A DNA stretch of 64,000 nucleotides from Paramacrobiotus metropolitanus (lineage: Eukaryota; Tardigrada; Eutardigrada; Parachela; Macrobiotidae): positions 1 through 64,000 of the forward strand of contig NW_026570304.1 in NCBI RefSeq assembly GCF_019649055.1, given 5' to 3'. Made by a program: the position numbers and the translations under genes. Below, piece after piece: positions 1 to 45,043 of the stretch; the first letter of the stretch is position 1; each line of letters opens with the position of its first letter. The notes under the pieces are model-generated. The model did not search any database. It saw nothing but the letters and a program-made list of their open reading frames with translations, and was not told the DNA's origin.

Positions 1-72
1 GTTGTTTGCCTGTTGTCCAGCGTTGTCCACCCCTTTGTCTTGTGTTGTCTGCCCGTTGTCTTGCGTTGGCCT
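1..72 (-). repeat. Left minisatellite array, inverted copy (cut by window edge)
   Basis: The first ~72 bases are the reverse complement of the minisatellite at 3225-6485: the words GTTGTC, CGTTGTCCA and GCCCGTTGTC follow one another with the same 10/11-base spacing. The array ends abruptly in TTGCGTTGGCCTCC. The inner edge of the right array, read on the minus strand, has a matching junction (GCCCGTTGTCTT, four variable bases, TGGCCT). The two arrays therefore look like arms of one inverted repeat. The left arm's length is unknown because it leaves the window. Confidence 0.9.
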
Positions 73-531
73 CCTTAATTAACAGTGTGTAAGTAAATTA
101 ATGTAATCTACCTAACAAATGCTTCCATCTAATGAATGTTGGTGATTCAAGTTAATGTTACTTGCTATGACTTTGGGCAGTAGTGGTTACAGTAATACTG
201 GTGCCGGTAGTGATAAGCGTAGTGCTACTGGTACAGATAATGGTAACGGTGCTAAAAGTGGCTACGATAGTGATAGGGTAAAACCAAACACGATTCTATT
301 ATTTCTCTCAGGTTTTTATTAATAATTTGAATCCCTTTTTCTTGTGTTTTTTATTGTTTGCTTCTGCTTGCTTTTCATGTTTACCACTTATATATTTCCT
401 AATATTTGCGTTTAATTCTTACGGTTCAGAAGTTGCATGCGCAGCTTTTTTATTACTATCTGAACCAATACAAGAACTAGTACCATTAACGGGATTTAGC
501 CATGAATACTGAAGCGTTTCGGTTTATATAG
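73..531. other. Non-coding 5' part of the transposon core
   Basis: AT-rich sequence between the left array and the first usable exon. It holds a GGTA/GTGCTACTGG-like trinucleotide-rich patch near 185-270. A 61-codon hydrophobic open frame at 327-512 has no recognised similarity. A promoter or an additional 5' exon of the transposase gene may lie here, but I could not identify either. Confidence 0.4.
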
Positions 532-2626
532 ACTTCACTCTCACTGTACATTTCAAGCCTTTGCACAAATTATGCGATCGTCTTTTGGATGGAGCACCGG
601 TAAGTTTTCGTTAGCTATGTGCAAAGCGCATTCAGTAATCACCGTACTCTAGCCAATCAAATATGTCTAACTTAACGTTTTTACATAGATTTTAACCGCA
701 AAATGGTCAGCGAAGCGTTCTGGAGCAACGAAATCGAGTCAGAGCTGAGGGAGCAAAAAATCGTTTATGGATTCAGTGGGCGCAAAATAAACTGTGCCGC
801 TGTCAAACAGCATATAGAAACTGTTCGAACATCAAAGCTGTACGATCATAACTGCAGCATGGAGAGTACTTCTGGATGCCAGTTCCTTGACATGATGGAC
901 GGGCTTTGGAAATTCGGGCACAAGCACTGCGCCATGCCAGTCAAGGTAAAGCATACATGAACTGGCAGTACAGAACACATTTGTTATGGCCATCCACGTC
1001 AGCGTAACCATACTCTAATTTCAAAACATGATACAGTTCTTCGTTTCCCATAATATGTAAGTTTCGGTTTATTTGCTATTACTCCCACCGTCTGCTAAGT
1101 TTCCTTTTTATGCTGCCATCTTTAATTAGCTGCGTGCAGCTAAATTTTCTAATAGCAATGTAACATTCATAATCTATCAAAAGGCTATTCTTTCACATCA
1201 GAGACCGCTAGTTACTACGTTGTGAGTTACTGCGTTACGTTTAAAATAGTCTCAAAGAAGTGGTCAAGAAAGCAAACTTTCCTAATCTTCTACATCGTTA
1301 TCAATTTTAGTCAGTTTGTTTTATGCTCGGGGTTTCCAGATGCTTCGGTTTTTCAATGGTTTTATTTGCCTATTTCTAACACAAAATCGGTGGTCCGCTA
1401 ATATCGGTATTGGCGGGCAAACCGTTTTGATATACCAAGAGCTGCAGCTATCTCGTTAGACTTCGGCTCAGCAAGTTAACTGAACTCTGACGGTTTGACA
1501 GTACAAAAACAGTTTCTAGTTAGTCTCTCTTTTTATGAACGGTTCTTAGTAATATCTTAAGTTTAGACTGCTTTTTCTGTGTATAGAAGATTGTGGACAT
1601 CCGTCATATTAACTTGCCCCAAGTGTGTGAAAATCAACCTACAAAAAATTCCAAATTTTGCCTACCACACCATGGCCCTCTTAAAAACCTGGAACAGGCA
1701 ATGAGCAAAGAGGAGTTCAAGTCTTATCTTGCGCAGAAAGAAGCTGCCGTGCGAGTGGTTTCTGATAATTTGTTCCAAGATGAAATGGAAGAAAACGCAG
1801 GGAACGCGCTGACATCTGAGCTAAACTGCAACAACAAAAATGTGGTTGCTCCGTGGTGCCGTAAAAGATCTGGAAGAAAAACTAAAGAGTCTTGGTCCAG
1901 AGGCATATTTGTGTATGTGGCGGCTTGTGGAACAATCCTCAGTTATTCTCCAATATATAAGTAAGGAAACCGTCAAACATAACACTGCTAGTTTATAATT
2001 TTGGTCTATTTCCGCTATTACCGAATATTTCTGAACCGCGGTTTCTTGAACTAGGAGTGAATCACTTAGTCAAGTTCTGGTTCTGACACTGGAGTTCCTG
2101 TACAAAAGGATGCAACTGCTTGCAAATCACTTGTGGTCCAAATACTTTCTGTGTTACGACAACATGTAAAGAACGAGCATTTTTAACACACGCCATATTG
2201 TAAGTAGGCAACTGATTTTCCGGATTTTTTAGGTGCAATTTGTGCCGGTTAAAGGCTCTAAAAGAACCGCTCAATCACGTTCTGCCAGAGGGATACGACA
2301 ATATGTTCAATATCATCAACAAAATTGTTGACGGGCTGCATATGAGCAATCATAGGCGCGAGGATTGTCACGTTCTTTACAATCCCAACAAGTTTTCTGA
2401 TGTTCACCCGGAAGTCAGCCGAAACACCATGGCTGCTGAGCAAACTTTTTCTTGGTTAGGGCGTTATCGCAAACAAGTTAACAGCATGAATAAAACTAAT
2501 CAACATCTTTTTCTCCATCGGGTCATCATTCGTCGAAATTGGTATATAACTCAGTGCATGCAAAACGGGCAAACACCGGTAGTATGTTCTCTCCGGTCAC
2601 GTGAAGAACGCTTTGGTTTTACATAA
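532..2626 (+). CDS. KDZ-type transposase-like protein (spliced, 5' end uncertain)
   Basis: Exon model: 532-599 (tentative), 689-945, 1587-1960, 2055-2165, 2233-2626. All junctions are GT-AG and phases agree, giving roughly 400 residues. The protein shows, in order, FNRK near the start, the motif DGLWKFGHKHC, a cysteine-rich piece ending FCLPHHGPL, then AACG...SYSPIY..ES, YDNMCNLCRLK, NHRREDC, and near the end NTMAAEQTFSWLGRYRKQ followed by RVIIRRNWY. This order is typical of KDZ-superfamily transposases and their relatives in animals. The Asp of DGLWK, the Asp of YDNMC and the Glu of AAEQ are plausible DDE catalytic residues (inference). No stop codon or frameshift is visible within the joined exons, so the copy may be intact or recently active. 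The N terminus is not resolved: the frame upstream of 532 is closed and another exon is likely. Alternatively it is a domesticated, non-mobile relative. Confidence 0.75.
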
Positions 2627-3224
2627 GCTCCTTTCATTTATTTAAATGATTGTTGCATGTTTTGATCGATTGATACCATGTTCTTTAGCATTGCCTATCT
2701 GGTTGGAGAAGTGTTAAAACAACCCCGCACTACAACCACTTTTGCATAAAAATGGGCGTTTGGTAAAAACTAAAAAGCATTTTAAATATATTTATCTTTT
2801 TAATCAGCTGTTTAGACATCTTTTTATTTTTACTGGTTTTTGACATTTTCCTGAGACTTCGTCATACCTTTACTAATTCGATCTTTCAGGCACGTTTACT
2901 CACTGAACAAATAAATTTGCTAAATAACCTTTACCAAGCAAATGGCCGTAGTTCTAATTTTCATATACGAGCATACCGCAATTTAATTTAAACCGTAGAG
3001 AGTCTATGGCTGCTACCTAATGTTTTCTGTACACAACGTAAAGGATGGTTTATTTTCCGTGCACAGCAGCTAGTTTCAAATATGGCTGAACAATACAATT
3101 TAAAATGCTGAATCTTCCAGTTACTCATTTTCGACGAATTTTTGATACCAAAGTCGATACAACGATTTAGGCGAAATCAGCATACCCAGACCCAGGTCAA
3201 GGCCTAAGCGTTATGAAAACTTCC
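2627..3224. other. Transposon core 3' flank, no gene seen
   Basis: About 600 bases of AT-rich non-coding sequence between the stop codon of the KDZ gene and the first degenerate repeat units of the right array. Nothing else is recognised. The last part (about 3199-3235, GCCTAAGCG...AGGCCAGTG) resembles, in inverted orientation, the left array-to-core junction. Confidence 0.5.
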
Positions 3225-6200
3225 TAAAGGCCAGTGAAAGACAACGGGCGTCTTACGAAAGATAACGGGTGGACAAAGCAAGACAGCGAGTGGAAAACGC
3301 AAAGCAACGGTTGGCCCTTGCAAGGCAACGGGTGTACAACGCAATATAACGCGCAAACAACGCAGGACAACGGGTGGGCAACGGGTGGGCAACGCTGGAC
3401 AACGGGCGGACTACGCAATACAACGGGCAAACAACGCAAGGCAACGGGTGGACAACGCAAGAGAACGGGCAAACAACACAAGACAACCGGTGGACAACGC
3501 TGGACAACGGGCAAACAACGCAAGACAACGGGTGGGCAACGCTGGACAACGGGCAGACAACACAAGACAACGGGTGGACAACGCTGGACAACAGGCAAAC
3601 AACGCAGGGCAACGTGTGGACAACGCAAGACAACGGGCAGACAACACAAGACAAGGGGTGGACAACGCTGGACAACAGGCAAACAACGCAGGGCAACGTG
3701 TGGACAACGCAAGACAACGGGCAGACAACACAAGACAAGGGGTGGACAACGCTGGACAACAGGCAAACAACGCAGGGCAACGTGTGGACAACGCAAGACA
3801 ACGGGCAAACAACGCAAGACAACAGGTGGACTACGCAATACAACGGGCAAACAACGCAAGGCAACGGGTGGACAACGCAAGAGAACGGGCAAACAACACA
3901 AGACAACCGGTGGACAACGCTGGACAACGGGCAGACAACACAAGACAACGGGTGGACAACGCTGGACAACGGGCAAACAACGCAGGGCAACGTGTGGACA
4001 ACGCAAGACAACGGGCAAACAACACAAGACAACGGGTGGACAACGCTGGACAACAGGCAAACAACGCAGGGCAACGTGTGGACAACGCAAGACAACGGGC
4101 AAACAACACAAGACAAGGGGTGGACAACGCTGGACAACAGGCAAACAACGCAGGGCAACGTGTGGACAACGCAAGACAACGGGCAAACAACGCAAGACAA
4201 CGGGTGGGCAACGCTGGACAACGGGCAGACAACACAAGACAACGGGTGGACAACGCTGGACAACGGGCAAACAACGCAGGGCAACGTGTGGACAACGCAA
4301 GACAACGGGTGGGCAACGCTGGACAACGGGCAGACAACACAAGACAACGGGTGGACAACGCTGGACAACGGGCAAACAACGCAGGGCAACGTGTGGACAA
4401 CGCTGGACAACAGGCAAACAACGCAGGGCAACGTGTGGACAACGCAAGACAACGGGCAAACAACACAAGACAACGGGCAAACAACGCAAAACAACGGGTG
4501 GGCAACGCTGGACAACGGGCAGACAACACAAGACAACGGGTGGACAACGCTGGACAACGGGCAAACAACGTGTGGACAACGCAAGACAACGGGTGGGCAA
4601 CGCTGGACAACGGGCAGACAACACAAGACAACGGGTGGACAACGCTGGACAACAGGCAAACAACGCAGGGCAACGTGTGGACAACGGGCAAACAACACAA
4701 GACAACGGGCAAACAACGCAAAACAACGGGTGGGCAACGCTGGACAACGGGCAGACAACACAAGACAACGGGTGGACAACGCTGGACAACGGGCAAACAA
4801 CGCAGGGCAACGTGTGGACAACGCAAGACAACGGGTGGGCAACGCTGGACAACGGGCAGACAACACAAGACAACGGGTGGACAACGCTGGACAACGGGCA
4901 AACAACGCAGGGCAACGTGTGGACAACGCTGGACAACAGGCAAACAACGCAGGGCAACGTGTGGACAACGGGCAAACAACACAAGACAACGGGCAAACAA
5001 CGCAAAACAACGGGTGGGCAACGCTGGACAACGGGCAGACAACACAAGACAACGGGTGGACAACGCTGGACAACGGGCAAACAACGCAGGGCAACGTGTG
5101 GACAACGCTGGACAACAGGCAAACAACGCTGGACAACGGGTAAACAACGCAGGGCAACGTGTGGACAACGCAAGACAACGGGCAAACAACGCAAGACAAC
5201 GGGTGGGCAACGCTGGACAACGGGCAGACAACACAAGACAACGGGTGGACAACGCTGGACAACGGGCAAACAACACAAGACAACGGGTGGACAACGCTGG
5301 ACAACAGGCAAACAACGCAAGACAACGGGTGGGCAATGCTGGACAACGGGCAAACAACACAAGACAACGGGTGGACAACGCTGGACAACGGGCAAACAAC
5401 GCAAGACAACGGGTGGACAACGCTGGACAACGGGCAGACAACACAAGACAACGGGTGGACAACGCTGGACAACGGGCAAACAACGCAGGGCAACGTGTGG
5501 ACAACGCAAGACAACGGGCAAACAACGCAAGACAACGGGTGGGCAACGCTGGACAACGGGCAGACAACACAAGACAACGGGTGGACAACGCTGGACAACG
5601 GGCAGACAACACAAGACAACGGGTGGACAACGCTGGACAACGGGCAAACAACGCAGGGCAACGTGTGGACAACGCAAGACAACGGGCAAACAACGCAAGA
5701 CAACGGGTGGGCAACGCTGGACAACGGGCAGACACAAGACAACGGGTGGACAACGCTGGACAACGGGCAGACAACACAAGACAACGGGTGGACAACGCTG
5801 GACAACGGGCAAACAACGCAAGACAACGGGTGGACAACGCTGGACAACGGGCAGACAACACAAGACAACGGGTGGACAACGCTGGACAACGGGCAGACAA
5901 CACAAGACAACGGGTGGACAACGCTGGACAACGGGCAAACAACGCAGGGCAACGTGTGGACAACGCAAGACAACGGGCAAACAACGCAAGACAACGGGTG
6001 GGCAACGGAGGATAACGGGTGGACAACGGAAGACAACCGGTAGACAACGCAAGGCAACGGGTGGACAACGGAAGACAACCGGTAGACAACGCAAGGCAAC
6101 GGGTGGACAACGGAGGACAACGGGTAGACAACGCAAGACAACGGGTGGCCAACGGAGGACAACGGGTGGACAACGCAGGGCAACGTGTGGACAACGCAAG

Positions 6201-6485
6201 ACAACGGGCAAACAACGCAAGACAACGGGTGGGCAACGCTGGACAACGGGCAGACAACACAAGACAACGGGTGGACAACGGAGGATAACGGGTGGACAAC
6301 GGAAGACAACCGGTAGACAACGCAAGGCAACGGGTGGACAACGGAAGACAACCGGTAGACAACGCAAGGCAACGGGTGGACAACGGAGGACAACGGGTAG
6401 ACAACGCAAGACAACGGGTGGCCAACGCAATACAACGGGTGGACAACGCAAAGCAACAGGTTGACAACGGCGGTCAACGCAGACT
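3225..6485 (+). repeat. Right minisatellite array, 21-bp (10+11) unit, ~155 copies
   Basis: The array is built from alternating 10-mers (ACAACGCTGG, ACAACGCAAG, ACAACACAAG) and 11-mers (ACAACGGGTGG, ACAACGGGCAA, ACAACGGGCAG), so the basic period is 21 bp with a frequent 42-bp higher-order unit. A variant ACAACGTGTGG recurs. Copies are nearly identical in the middle and degenerate at both edges (3225-3400, 6430-6485), as expected for unequal exchange. The plus strand is poor in T. Because 21 is a multiple of 3 and the units carry no stop codons, all six frames stay open for hundreds of codons. These open frames are a by-product of the repeat, not evidence of protein. Confidence 0.97.
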
Positions 6486-6886
6486 ACAAGCGTGATTCCG
6501 CGTTCTAAAAAATTGACGTGTAGAAAACGTGCCATACCTAACCAGCATTATCAGATCCCCCATAATTCGGTAACGGACTTTGTCTGGAATACTTGCATTT
6601 GGTGGCGATAATTAGCACACATAAAAATCACGAGTTACTTGTAGTTTAAATATACGTCCAGCGCGCACGTGTGCATTTGATAGTAGGAAGGCCGCGCATA
6701 TGGGCATTAGATGGCGGTGCGCCGGTGACCGACAGACACCACATTTTTCATGAACGCTGAACATCGAGGACCTTCGCTACGCTTCGGTCGACAAGGAAGT
6801 AAATGTCCTTTAATCTTCCCTCCTTCTTTTGGACCCTGATCATTGGATTAGAAATCATCAGCTCCATAACTGTAGACGGAAACGGT
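6486..6886. other. Intergenic, no feature seen
   Basis: Single-copy-looking DNA between the minisatellite edge and the stop codon of the Ly6-type gene. It should contain the 3' untranslated region of that minus-strand gene. No clear polyadenylation signal was recognised. Confidence 0.5.
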
Positions 6887-43209: not shown

Positions 43210-45043
43210 ATGCTGAAGCGCGCGGCCAGCCCCGCGTTGGCAGCCGGCGGAAGTGGCGTTGAGCCGGGGCAGTGGATGGTGCGCAGTGAGTCAGACGAGC
43301 AGTGGGCCAGCACGTGCACGCTCAATGCCGCGGCGCGCACCGTCGGCGTGTCGGAGTGGGCCGTTGCGCAGGCGTTGCTGTCGATGAGTCAGCTGCAGTC
43401 CACCACGCAGACGCAGCGGCTTCCGCTGCCACGAAACGACCAGCACAAGCAAGCACTGGATGACTGCAGCAAGGCAACGGAAGCCGCGTCGGTGTCCGAG
43501 AAGGTCGGCAGCTGCCAGCCGCCCGCGGACGCCGACTACGAGCCAGCGGCCACGCGGGAGCCCGGTAACGGGGCTTGCCGCTCTGCGGATGTAAACAGCG
43601 GTCTGCCCTCTGGACTCGGTGAACTGTCTGGAGTTTGTGCTTTGGCCGACCTGCGTGTGCCTCCGCGCAAGCGCCTGGCTCTCCGGACTCGCCCGGGGCC
43701 AAGCACTTCGCGCGCCGTTGCTGTCAACCTCAAGGTACGTGCACTTTAGTATTTACAGTACGACTGCACGAGCTATACAAACTTACAGGCTGATACAGCA
43801 ACACGGTTCAGTAACTGTACACAGTATTGTAGTATAGATATACCTTCATACTTGTACCATGATGAACTGGTATTATCTACGTACGTATTCTGAGTTTTAC
43901 TTGAGATGGCATCAATTCGTTTAACTATTTGTAAGGCTAATAGAGCCTGCAGTCCGAGGAAATGTATAAATTAGTTTGTATTGCTCGCCTGATATTACGT
44001 TAAACCAAATTAGTAGTCATTTGCTTACTGCTAGCATACATCATTAGTGCACTTCATTATATGGATGCGAGCTCTATATTAAGTATATTAAAAATTTGTA
44101 GACCTGTTTAATAACAATTGCACTTTTTGATGGTTAAAATACGGCTAATTTATTGAAGTTGCTGGCCTGATGTAATCGATATCATTTTTGACAGGTTCCG
44201 TCAACAGTAAACGAAGCTGCTGGTACTGTGGATAACCTCGTATCCAGCGGCCACGCTTCGCGATCGGCTTCCCCTGCAGTCTCCGACAAAGAAAATCCCA
44301 GCTCCACCTGCAGCGACACAAGCAGCACCTGCGATCCGCGGGCTGCTCCTGCCGCCTGCCCCTCACCACTTCCGGCGCCGGCCTCCCCGGCTACGAGTGC
44401 CTCATCCACGCCCCCGCCCAGCGCCAGCTACGTGCCCTTTTTGCCGGTGACCCTGCTGTCGCCCAACAACCTGCTGCACCTGGTCGTGGCCACCAACAGC
44501 GACGCCGGCGGCGCCACCGTCGCCTGCCGGACGCCCATCCGCATCCAGCTGCAGACGCCGCACTCCCTGCAGCCGCTCCTCGTGCCGCTGCGGCCGCTGT
44601 GCCGGGCGTCGCCGTCGCAGTCCCGGCCGCCGGAAATGCCCAGCCTGTCCATCCGGCAGCGCAACTTCAAGTGCGACTCCTGCGAGAAGACCTACTACAA
44701 GAGCTCGCATTTGAAGGCCCACGTGCGGACGCACACCGGCGAGAAGCCCTATGTCTGTGATTACGAGGCGTGTGACAAGCGTTTCGCACGCTCCGACGAG
44801 CTGTCGCGCCACCGGCGCACCCACACGAACGAGCGCAACTTTGCGTGTGACCACTGCGGGAAGCGGTTCATGCGCAGCGACCACTTGCGGAAGCACATGA
44901 AGCGGCATGCCAAACTGGCGCCGGCCGCCAGCAGCGCCACGCGGCACATCCTCAGCAAACCCTTCGCCGCTGCCAGCAGTCCGCCGCTGGCCATCTCGCT
45001 CGGCGTGCCGGTGACCGGCTTCCCGCCCGTTCCCTCCCGCTGA
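43210..45043 (+). CDS. Krueppel-like factor, KLF10/11 (TIEG)-like (457 aa)
   Basis: Two exons, 43210-43734 and 44195-45043, in phase. Three C2H2 fingers lie at the C-terminal side: CDSC...[15 protein letters not shown]...ELSRHRRTH and CDHC...HLRKHMKRH, with TGEKPY and TNERNF linkers. This is the KLF/SP layout, and [12 protein letters not shown] with RSDHLRKH is typical of KLF. Finger 1 has a short C-x2-C instead of the usual C-x4-C. The N-terminal part contains [12 protein letters not shown], resembling the Sin3-interaction helix of TIEG proteins, and [12 protein letters not shown], as in TIEG-type factors. The middle is Pro/Ser/Ala-rich. A nuclear, GC-box-binding repressor or activator is expected. 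Three-finger KLFs of other groups (KLF9/13/16) also carry a Sin3 helix and are the alternative. Confidence 0.9.

Follow-up and report, generated by a model that had tools for sequence, protein, structure and literature searches.

Bases 1-6540 of the window, which is the first 64,000 bases (1-64000) of contig C84 of the tardigrade Paramacrobiotus metropolitanus, very probably form the right-hand part of a DNA transposon of the KDZ (Kyakuja-Dileera-Zisupton) superfamily with a Foldback/Galileo build. Foldback-like arms are best known in Drosophila, from Foldback and from Galileo of the P superfamily. A sequence-only reading of the window had suggested a foldback-like KDZ element at 1-6490, and the genome (170 Mb in 533 contigs) bears this out: inverted arrays enclose six more KDZ loci, of which five have perfect 8-bp target-site duplications (TSDs). 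The start at the contig edge stands, and the right end moves to 6540 to take in a conserved tip beyond the array. From the outside in, the order would be tip, short subterminal stretch (71 bp here), minisatellite arm, transposase core, inverted arm, and the other tip off the contig. The parts in the window are as follows.

1-71, minus strand: left arm, inner stub, 21-bp minisatellite opposite in orientation to the right arm (repeat scan, inverted pairing, private 26-mer)
72-3240, plus strand: single-copy core with the KDZ-type transposase gene (genome search and gene comparison)
3241-6469, plus strand: right arm, 21-bp minisatellite with a 42-bp higher-order unit (repeat scan, inverted pairing)
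6470-6540, plus strand: end A, subterminal region and tip, reading TAGGTATGGCACGTTTTCTACACG inward from the tip (tip recurs on other elements)
6541-6548, plus strand: ACCAGCAT, the expected right copy of an 8-bp TSD (inferred from C281, C65, C129, C43, C53, and C4)

Inverted minisatellite arms of the window element

A tandem repeat scan placed the left array at 1-68 (21-bp unit, 3.2 copies) and the right array at 3320-6469 (period 42, score 3450, with period 21 in one part). The core is 3.17 kb long and the right array about 3.2 kb; the left array measures 71 bp only because contig C84 starts there. The opposite orientation of the two arrays, already read from the sequence, was confirmed by pairing of 31-71 with 3618-3658 (41 nt, 95%); across the right array, the stub pairs through 31-71 or 31-74 (41-44 nt, best 95%). 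The two core/array junctions, also described as matching in inverted orientation, agree at 19 of 22 bases. Nor is the left array unrelated to the right one, an outcome that would have counted against a common element: the 26-mer GACAACGGGCAGACAACACAAGACAA has 20 copies genome-wide, 19 in the right arm and 1, inverted, in the left stub. Because this private 26-mer occurs in both, the arms of the window element may be copies of one another. It reflects no general rule, since a wider test of 24-mers shared between the arms of one element gave no clear excess (mean 0.147, n = 6, against between-element means of 0.132 on the same side, n = 42, and 0.112 on opposite sides, n = 43).

A stub of 71 bp at a contig end could also be an assembly or read chimera, in which a fold-back read was joined to an array that is truly one-sided. 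Such an artifact would likewise limit the private 26-mer to stub and right arm, and C77, C84, C265, and C335 all break within 21-bp arrays. We regard this as very improbable: nowhere in the right arm is the stub reproduced exactly (best local score, 66 of 71), which disfavors a fold-back artifact; the two junctions disagree at 3 of 22 positions; and sibling elements lying within contigs carry inverted arms at both ends. That four contigs end inside these arrays means that the 21-bp arms act as assembly gaps and that their copy number is a lower bound.

Two other origins of the arrays were rejected. A KDZ element nested in an older array would show equal orientation on both sides, and this reading was dropped because the two arrays have opposite orientations. 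A minisatellite spread over the whole genome was the other: one exact 24-base dimer of the 21-bp unit has 73 copies, every one in arrays of a single family of elements with 21-bp arms (the 21-bp-arm family), to which another unit word (20 copies) is also confined. A looser word of the unit gave 701 matches, the best 100 of which all fall in C39, C51, C77, C84, and C88. The prospect that the minisatellite occurs genome-wide without the KDZ core thus came out divided: it is restricted to the arrays of one family (73 of 73 dimers), yet six other loci of that family lack a KDZ gene.

The gene in the core

In the spliced gene recognized from the sequence, five exons join into an uninterrupted frame of 409 codons, and each of the four introns has GT..AG ends.

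506-599, plus strand: most upstream recognizable exon, start undefined (tblastn to C74, 67% over 33 amino acids, E 1.9e-11, and to C9, 65% over 23 amino acids; GT donor)
689-945, plus strand: exon with the presumed first catalytic D, in MMDGLW (alignment of relatives, splice sites)
1587-1960, plus strand: exon with 46% identity to C74 over 125 amino acids (splice sites)
2055-2165, plus strand: exon with the presumed second catalytic D, in YDNM (splice sites)
2233-2626, plus strand: last exon, with the presumed catalytic E, in AAEQTFSW, and the stop (53 genome matches; profile link to Pfam-KDZ open reading frames)

We take the D of MMDGLW, the D of YDNM, and the E of AAEQTFSW to be the catalytic D, D, and E. 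A Pfam scan of the window exons gave no match to the KDZ transposase domain (PF18758), and the KDZ label of this gene holds only indirectly, through sequence relatives. As a query, the last exon had 53 matches genome-wide at E 0.01, with identities of 61% to C74 and 56% to C104. A profile built from these two genomic relatives and the last exon of the window matches open reading frames (ORFs) on C129 (E 3e-32) and C65 (E 3e-21), both of which exceed the Pfam KDZ cut-off; the label comes by this route because the Pfam-passing ORFs were reached through the last-exon profile. C104 and C53 match Pfam KDZ below the cut-off, and C43, which has no Pfam match, is tied to KDZ through the profile alone. 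An N-terminal region with a cysteine cluster or PHD finger is typical of KDZ transposases; C65 and C74 possess an upstream cysteine-cluster exon that also finds matches in C9, C50, and C171, and C65 carries a PHD finger (Pfam).

Inverted arrays around other KDZ genes

Seven of the 13 KDZ loci inspected on both sides have the gene between inverted arrays: the window, C65, C129, C43, C53, C50, and C4. Five of the 13 (C50, C43, C171, C53, and C121) were chosen after a 3' array had been noticed, and C4 was found through the 84-bp unit that it has in common with C50, the stretch between its arms being unread. The six loci outside the window use five array units unrelated to each other.

C65: 30-bp unit; 10.0 kb from tip to tip; perfect 8-bp TSD CTCATTCG
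C129: 20/30-bp unit; 4.0 kb; perfect 8-bp TSD GGTAAAGA
C43: 116-bp unit; 4.2 kb; perfect 8-bp TSD CTTCTAAC
C53: 49-bp unit; 6.4 kb; perfect 8-bp TSD TCAGATTG
C4: 84-bp unit; 26.8 kb; perfect 8-bp TSD GTTTTGTC
C50: 84-bp unit, as in C4 (37 matches listed, all at these two loci); 26.2 kb

Of the six array-armed KDZ elements outside the window for which both tips were read, five therefore carry an 8-bp TSD, and in the six elements measured the arrays start 71-282 bp inward of the tips. When flanks were mispaired between loci and an exact 8-mer was required, the best tip match in 20 pairings was 13 of 22, against 16-22 for the true pairs. Two pairs involved a choice: that of C53 tied at 16/22 with another pair and was taken for its likeness to the window tip, and that of C4 (15/22) scored lower than pairs inside the C4 arrays and was taken because it lies outside them. 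TSD scans at C74, C104, C50, C171, C515, and C9 gave no clear TSD, the best tip scores being 13-15/22, mostly with a mismatched 8-mer, and a scan at C121 gave no candidate.

Arrays are also concentrated beside these genes. A tandem array lies within 1.9 kb 3' of the gene in 12 of the 26 KDZ loci read on that side, all of them counted, versus 1 among 51 control pieces (p 2.7e-6, Fisher test); the 26 loci are partly dependent (C515 is a copy of C129 at 98%, and several more are near-identical), and the controls, 29 from the window and 22 from near KDZ genes or inside C39, are a nonrandom sample of the genome. None of the 27 window pieces that made up an earlier control held an array. In the stretches read, 4 of the 13 loci have an array on one side (C74, C171, C121, and C515), the C74 unit being placed from the best 100 of 140 matches and the C171 and C121 units from local stretches only. 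In a last-exon tree, the inverted-array loci sit in separate branches, from which it is likely that arrays arose repeatedly among KDZ lineages, short of proof because support values are uneven.

Two observations concern the surroundings of these genes. The 28-bp unit beside the C74 gene also forms short inverted array pairs with scant room for a gene (C39:790500-792300, C19:848000-849200, and C98:437900-439600); these are possibly nonautonomous foldback derivatives, although no convincing TSD was found at the three pairs. One KDZ locus also has an astacin-like ORF (E 2.7e-32) close by.

Tips of the 21-bp-arm family

The window tip, which lies outside the right array and stops at 6540, recurs in the genome with 13 matches at up to 3 mismatches, its own included. 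Conserved tips occur on C39, C51, C77, C88, C241, C265, C281, C335, and the window, in two main versions: A, reading inward TAGGTATGGCACG.. (TAG..), and B, reading inward CACCTATGGCACG.. (CAC..), with variants at C19. Both have TATGGCACGTTTTCTACACG in common and thus constitute terminal inverted repeats (TIRs), as seen in the family; the window holds A only. C39, C88, C281, and C51 bear one A and one B tip each. The minus array lies left and the plus array right, as in the window, on C39, C51, C77, C88, and C281; the same order holds on C241, where an A tip was not found. C281 has a perfect 8-bp TSD, CTCAGTGC, with a tip match of 21/22. The family as a whole has a foldback-like build of long inverted tandem-repeat arms, conserved tips, and a variable core.

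Several features of the other family members stand apart from the window element. Their cores (C51, C77, C39, C88, C281, and C241) have stretches in common, and several hold 9-bp AACCTAAGA-type minisatellites. ORFs on C281 and C88 resemble tyrosine recombinase and RNase H by eye, without a Pfam match. C39 spans 33.5 kb from tip to tip. The A and B tips at C51:992965-1004774 have unmatched flanks, as ectopic recombination between copies would give. C19:893089-893815 packs three variant tips of this family, separated by array units, into about 700 bp and is a degenerate or nested tip cluster. A second tip family, TATGGCACGGTTAGTACACGT, lies near the window tip in sequence and has about a dozen copies (e.g., C44:154508 and C81:138852).

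Among array-armed KDZ elements, the tips fall into two classes. The first pairs TAG.. with CAC.. or CAG.. (the window family, C4, C50, and C53), C4 and C50 bearing the TAG../CAC.. pair; the second pairs CAT.. with GAG.. (C65, C129, and C43). Of 24 bases, the window A tip shares 18 with the TAG tip of C53 and 17 with that of C4, the best score over 57 kb of the window being 15; the likeness to C53 is partly selected because its pair was chosen for that likeness. At each of the four KDZ loci that have a TAG tip (window, C53, C4, and C50), the gene is oriented with its 3' end toward that tip.

Transposon or captured gene

Several results weigh against assigning the window element to KDZ. The contig ends before reaching the B tip of the window copy or the partner of its TSD, and the flanks of the orphan B ends on C335, C265, C241, and C77 do not match ACCAGCAT by eye. 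The core of this copy occurs once in the genome, the only other similarity being two partial 69% matches to the KDZ-type genes of C74 and C104, so a search for core plus arrays, as proposed from the sequence, yielded no second copy of this core but did yield other KDZ genes with inverted arrays. All six other 21-bp-arm loci that were read (C39, C51, C77, C88, C241, and C281) lack a KDZ match (tblastn best E 0.45), and because of this the link between 21-bp arms and KDZ comes from one core and from tip likeness. A clean TSD is found in only one of the four two-tipped 21-bp-arm copies (C281): C39 has TTCTTGTG at both ends with 5 extra bases on the B side, C88 repeats the 7 bases ATTTTTT at its ends, and C51 has no TSD at its two tips. 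Outside the family, the C50 flanks agree at 5 bases only, and no arrays were found at C104 and C9 in the stretches read (2 of 13). Against the window A tip, the second tip of C53 scores 13 of 24, that of C4 scores 12, and the tips of C65, C129, and C43 score 4-9, all within chance. Finally, a search of the window for the upstream cysteine-cluster exon found nothing at E 0.1. Because it was not found, the gene copy is probably 5'-incomplete, unless the missing exons lie left of the contig end, and the element would probably depend on a transposase supplied from elsewhere.

These points could be read to mean that the 21-bp-arm family is another transposon with 8-bp TSDs (e.g., hAT- or P-like) and that the KDZ gene fragment of the window is captured cargo. 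The window is the sole KDZ-bearing locus among those read in the family, other cores hold unrelated ORFs by Pfam (DDE_1, pogo-type, at C281; LINE-type endonuclease at C39), the gene is 5'-incomplete, and the tips of C65, C129, and C43 are unlike that of the window. We nevertheless consider capture improbable. The TAG tips of C53 and C4, on elements with unrelated arrays, resemble the window tip more closely than anything in 57 kb of the window does; KDZ genes recur between inverted arrays in this genome; C4 and C50 also bear the TAG../CAC.. pair, and the gene points toward the TAG tip at all four TAG-tipped loci; and the frame is open through five exons.

Proposed movement and possible origin of the arms

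For the KDZ transposon that we favor, the left end beyond the contig would be a B tip of the CAC..TATGGCAC kind. A KDZ transposase of RNase H fold with D-D-E residues would pair the A tip with the B tip, excise the element, and insert it with an 8-bp stagger, by cut and paste. By analogy with Galileo, the arms may supply many weak subterminal binding sites, and they may stay alike through copying between them.

The arms may also have no role and be ordinary minisatellite expansions near element ends, an account that is compatible with the anatomy proposed here and that we hold to be a real possibility while leaning against it. Units are wholly different between lineages (21, 30, 20/30, 49, 84, and 116 bp), arm lengths are unequal (4.4 versus 0.9 kb at C51), words common to both arms of one element show no general excess, and some KDZ loci have no array. 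Set against this are the inverted partner arms at seven KDZ loci, the start of the arrays 71-282 bp inside the tips in the six elements measured, and the enrichment of arrays beside KDZ genes (12/26 versus 1/51).

A bolder proposal, which we think rather unlikely, is that KDZ transposition or the ensuing repair itself builds the inverted minisatellite arms and keeps them alike, so that KDZ elements would be minisatellite makers. Each lineage would start a new minisatellite just inside its tips, enlarge it up to 4 kb, and copy it between arms; the short palindromic derivatives and the giant 26-27 kb forms would belong to the same process.

Foldback-like arms on several KDZ lineages, with six unrelated units in all, suggest a repeated rise on one type of transposase. 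They offer natural replicates for comparing arrays that serve a transposase with arrays that are by-products of its repair. Array-armed KDZ elements may also be a source of new minisatellites and account for some assembly breaks. Elsewhere in the window, an ORF on the plus strand at 44192-45043 appears by eye to encode three C2H2 zinc fingers of a KLF-like kind.

Comparison with known elements

No KDZ element with minisatellite-array arms was found in the open-access KDZ and Zisupton literature searched, in the portions available (including PMC12730594, PMC12810828, PMC9297572, PMC8226300, and PMC4022104); the founding Zisupton and KDZ descriptions lie outside it and may contain one. Within that literature, array-armed KDZ elements appear to be a variant without a description. 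KDZ transposons are represented there by KDZ1-KDZ3 of Cryptococcus (PMC12810828), Dileera and Kyakuja of fungi (PMC12730594), and Zisupton of Pristionchus (PMC9297572). According to the available text of these papers, TSDs are 8 bp in Zisupton, Zisupton-1_PGr, and KDZ1 and 4-8 bp in KDZ2/3 (PMC12810828, PMC12730594, and PMC9297572), and TIRs measure 139 bp in KDZ2, 169 bp in KDZ3, and 241 bp in KDZ1 and are absent in Kyakuja-1_LB and -2_LB (PMC12810828 and PMC12730594). The elements described here agree with them in the KDZ transposase domain (by Pfam at C129 and C65, through the profile for the window), the TIRs, and the 8-bp TSDs (at C281 and at five KDZ loci outside the window), and in having many exons, as in Pristionchus Zisupton. 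They differ in that their arms consist of tandem arrays roughly 0.1 to 4.4 kb long, whereas KDZ TIRs are not described as minisatellite arrays in the portions available.

With Galileo (P superfamily) and Foldback of Drosophila, they share long inverted ends of tandem repeats and variable cores (PMC3688188 and PMC4022104, as far as available). The THAP domain of the Galileo transposase binds about 70 bp from the tip, with further sites in tandem repeats (available text of PMC3688188). Unlike Galileo and Foldback, the elements here belong to another transposase superfamily, and their KDZ lineages have unrelated repeat units; no THAP or P-element Pfam match was seen in the selection of ORFs scanned. 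Tetris, a foldback element of D. virilis, is unlike the KDZ elements here in being apparently nonautonomous, with a unit of about 220 bp and no mention of a KDZ gene in the part of PMC4079207 available; like them, according to the same text, it has TIRs with internal tandem repeats able to expand into arrays.

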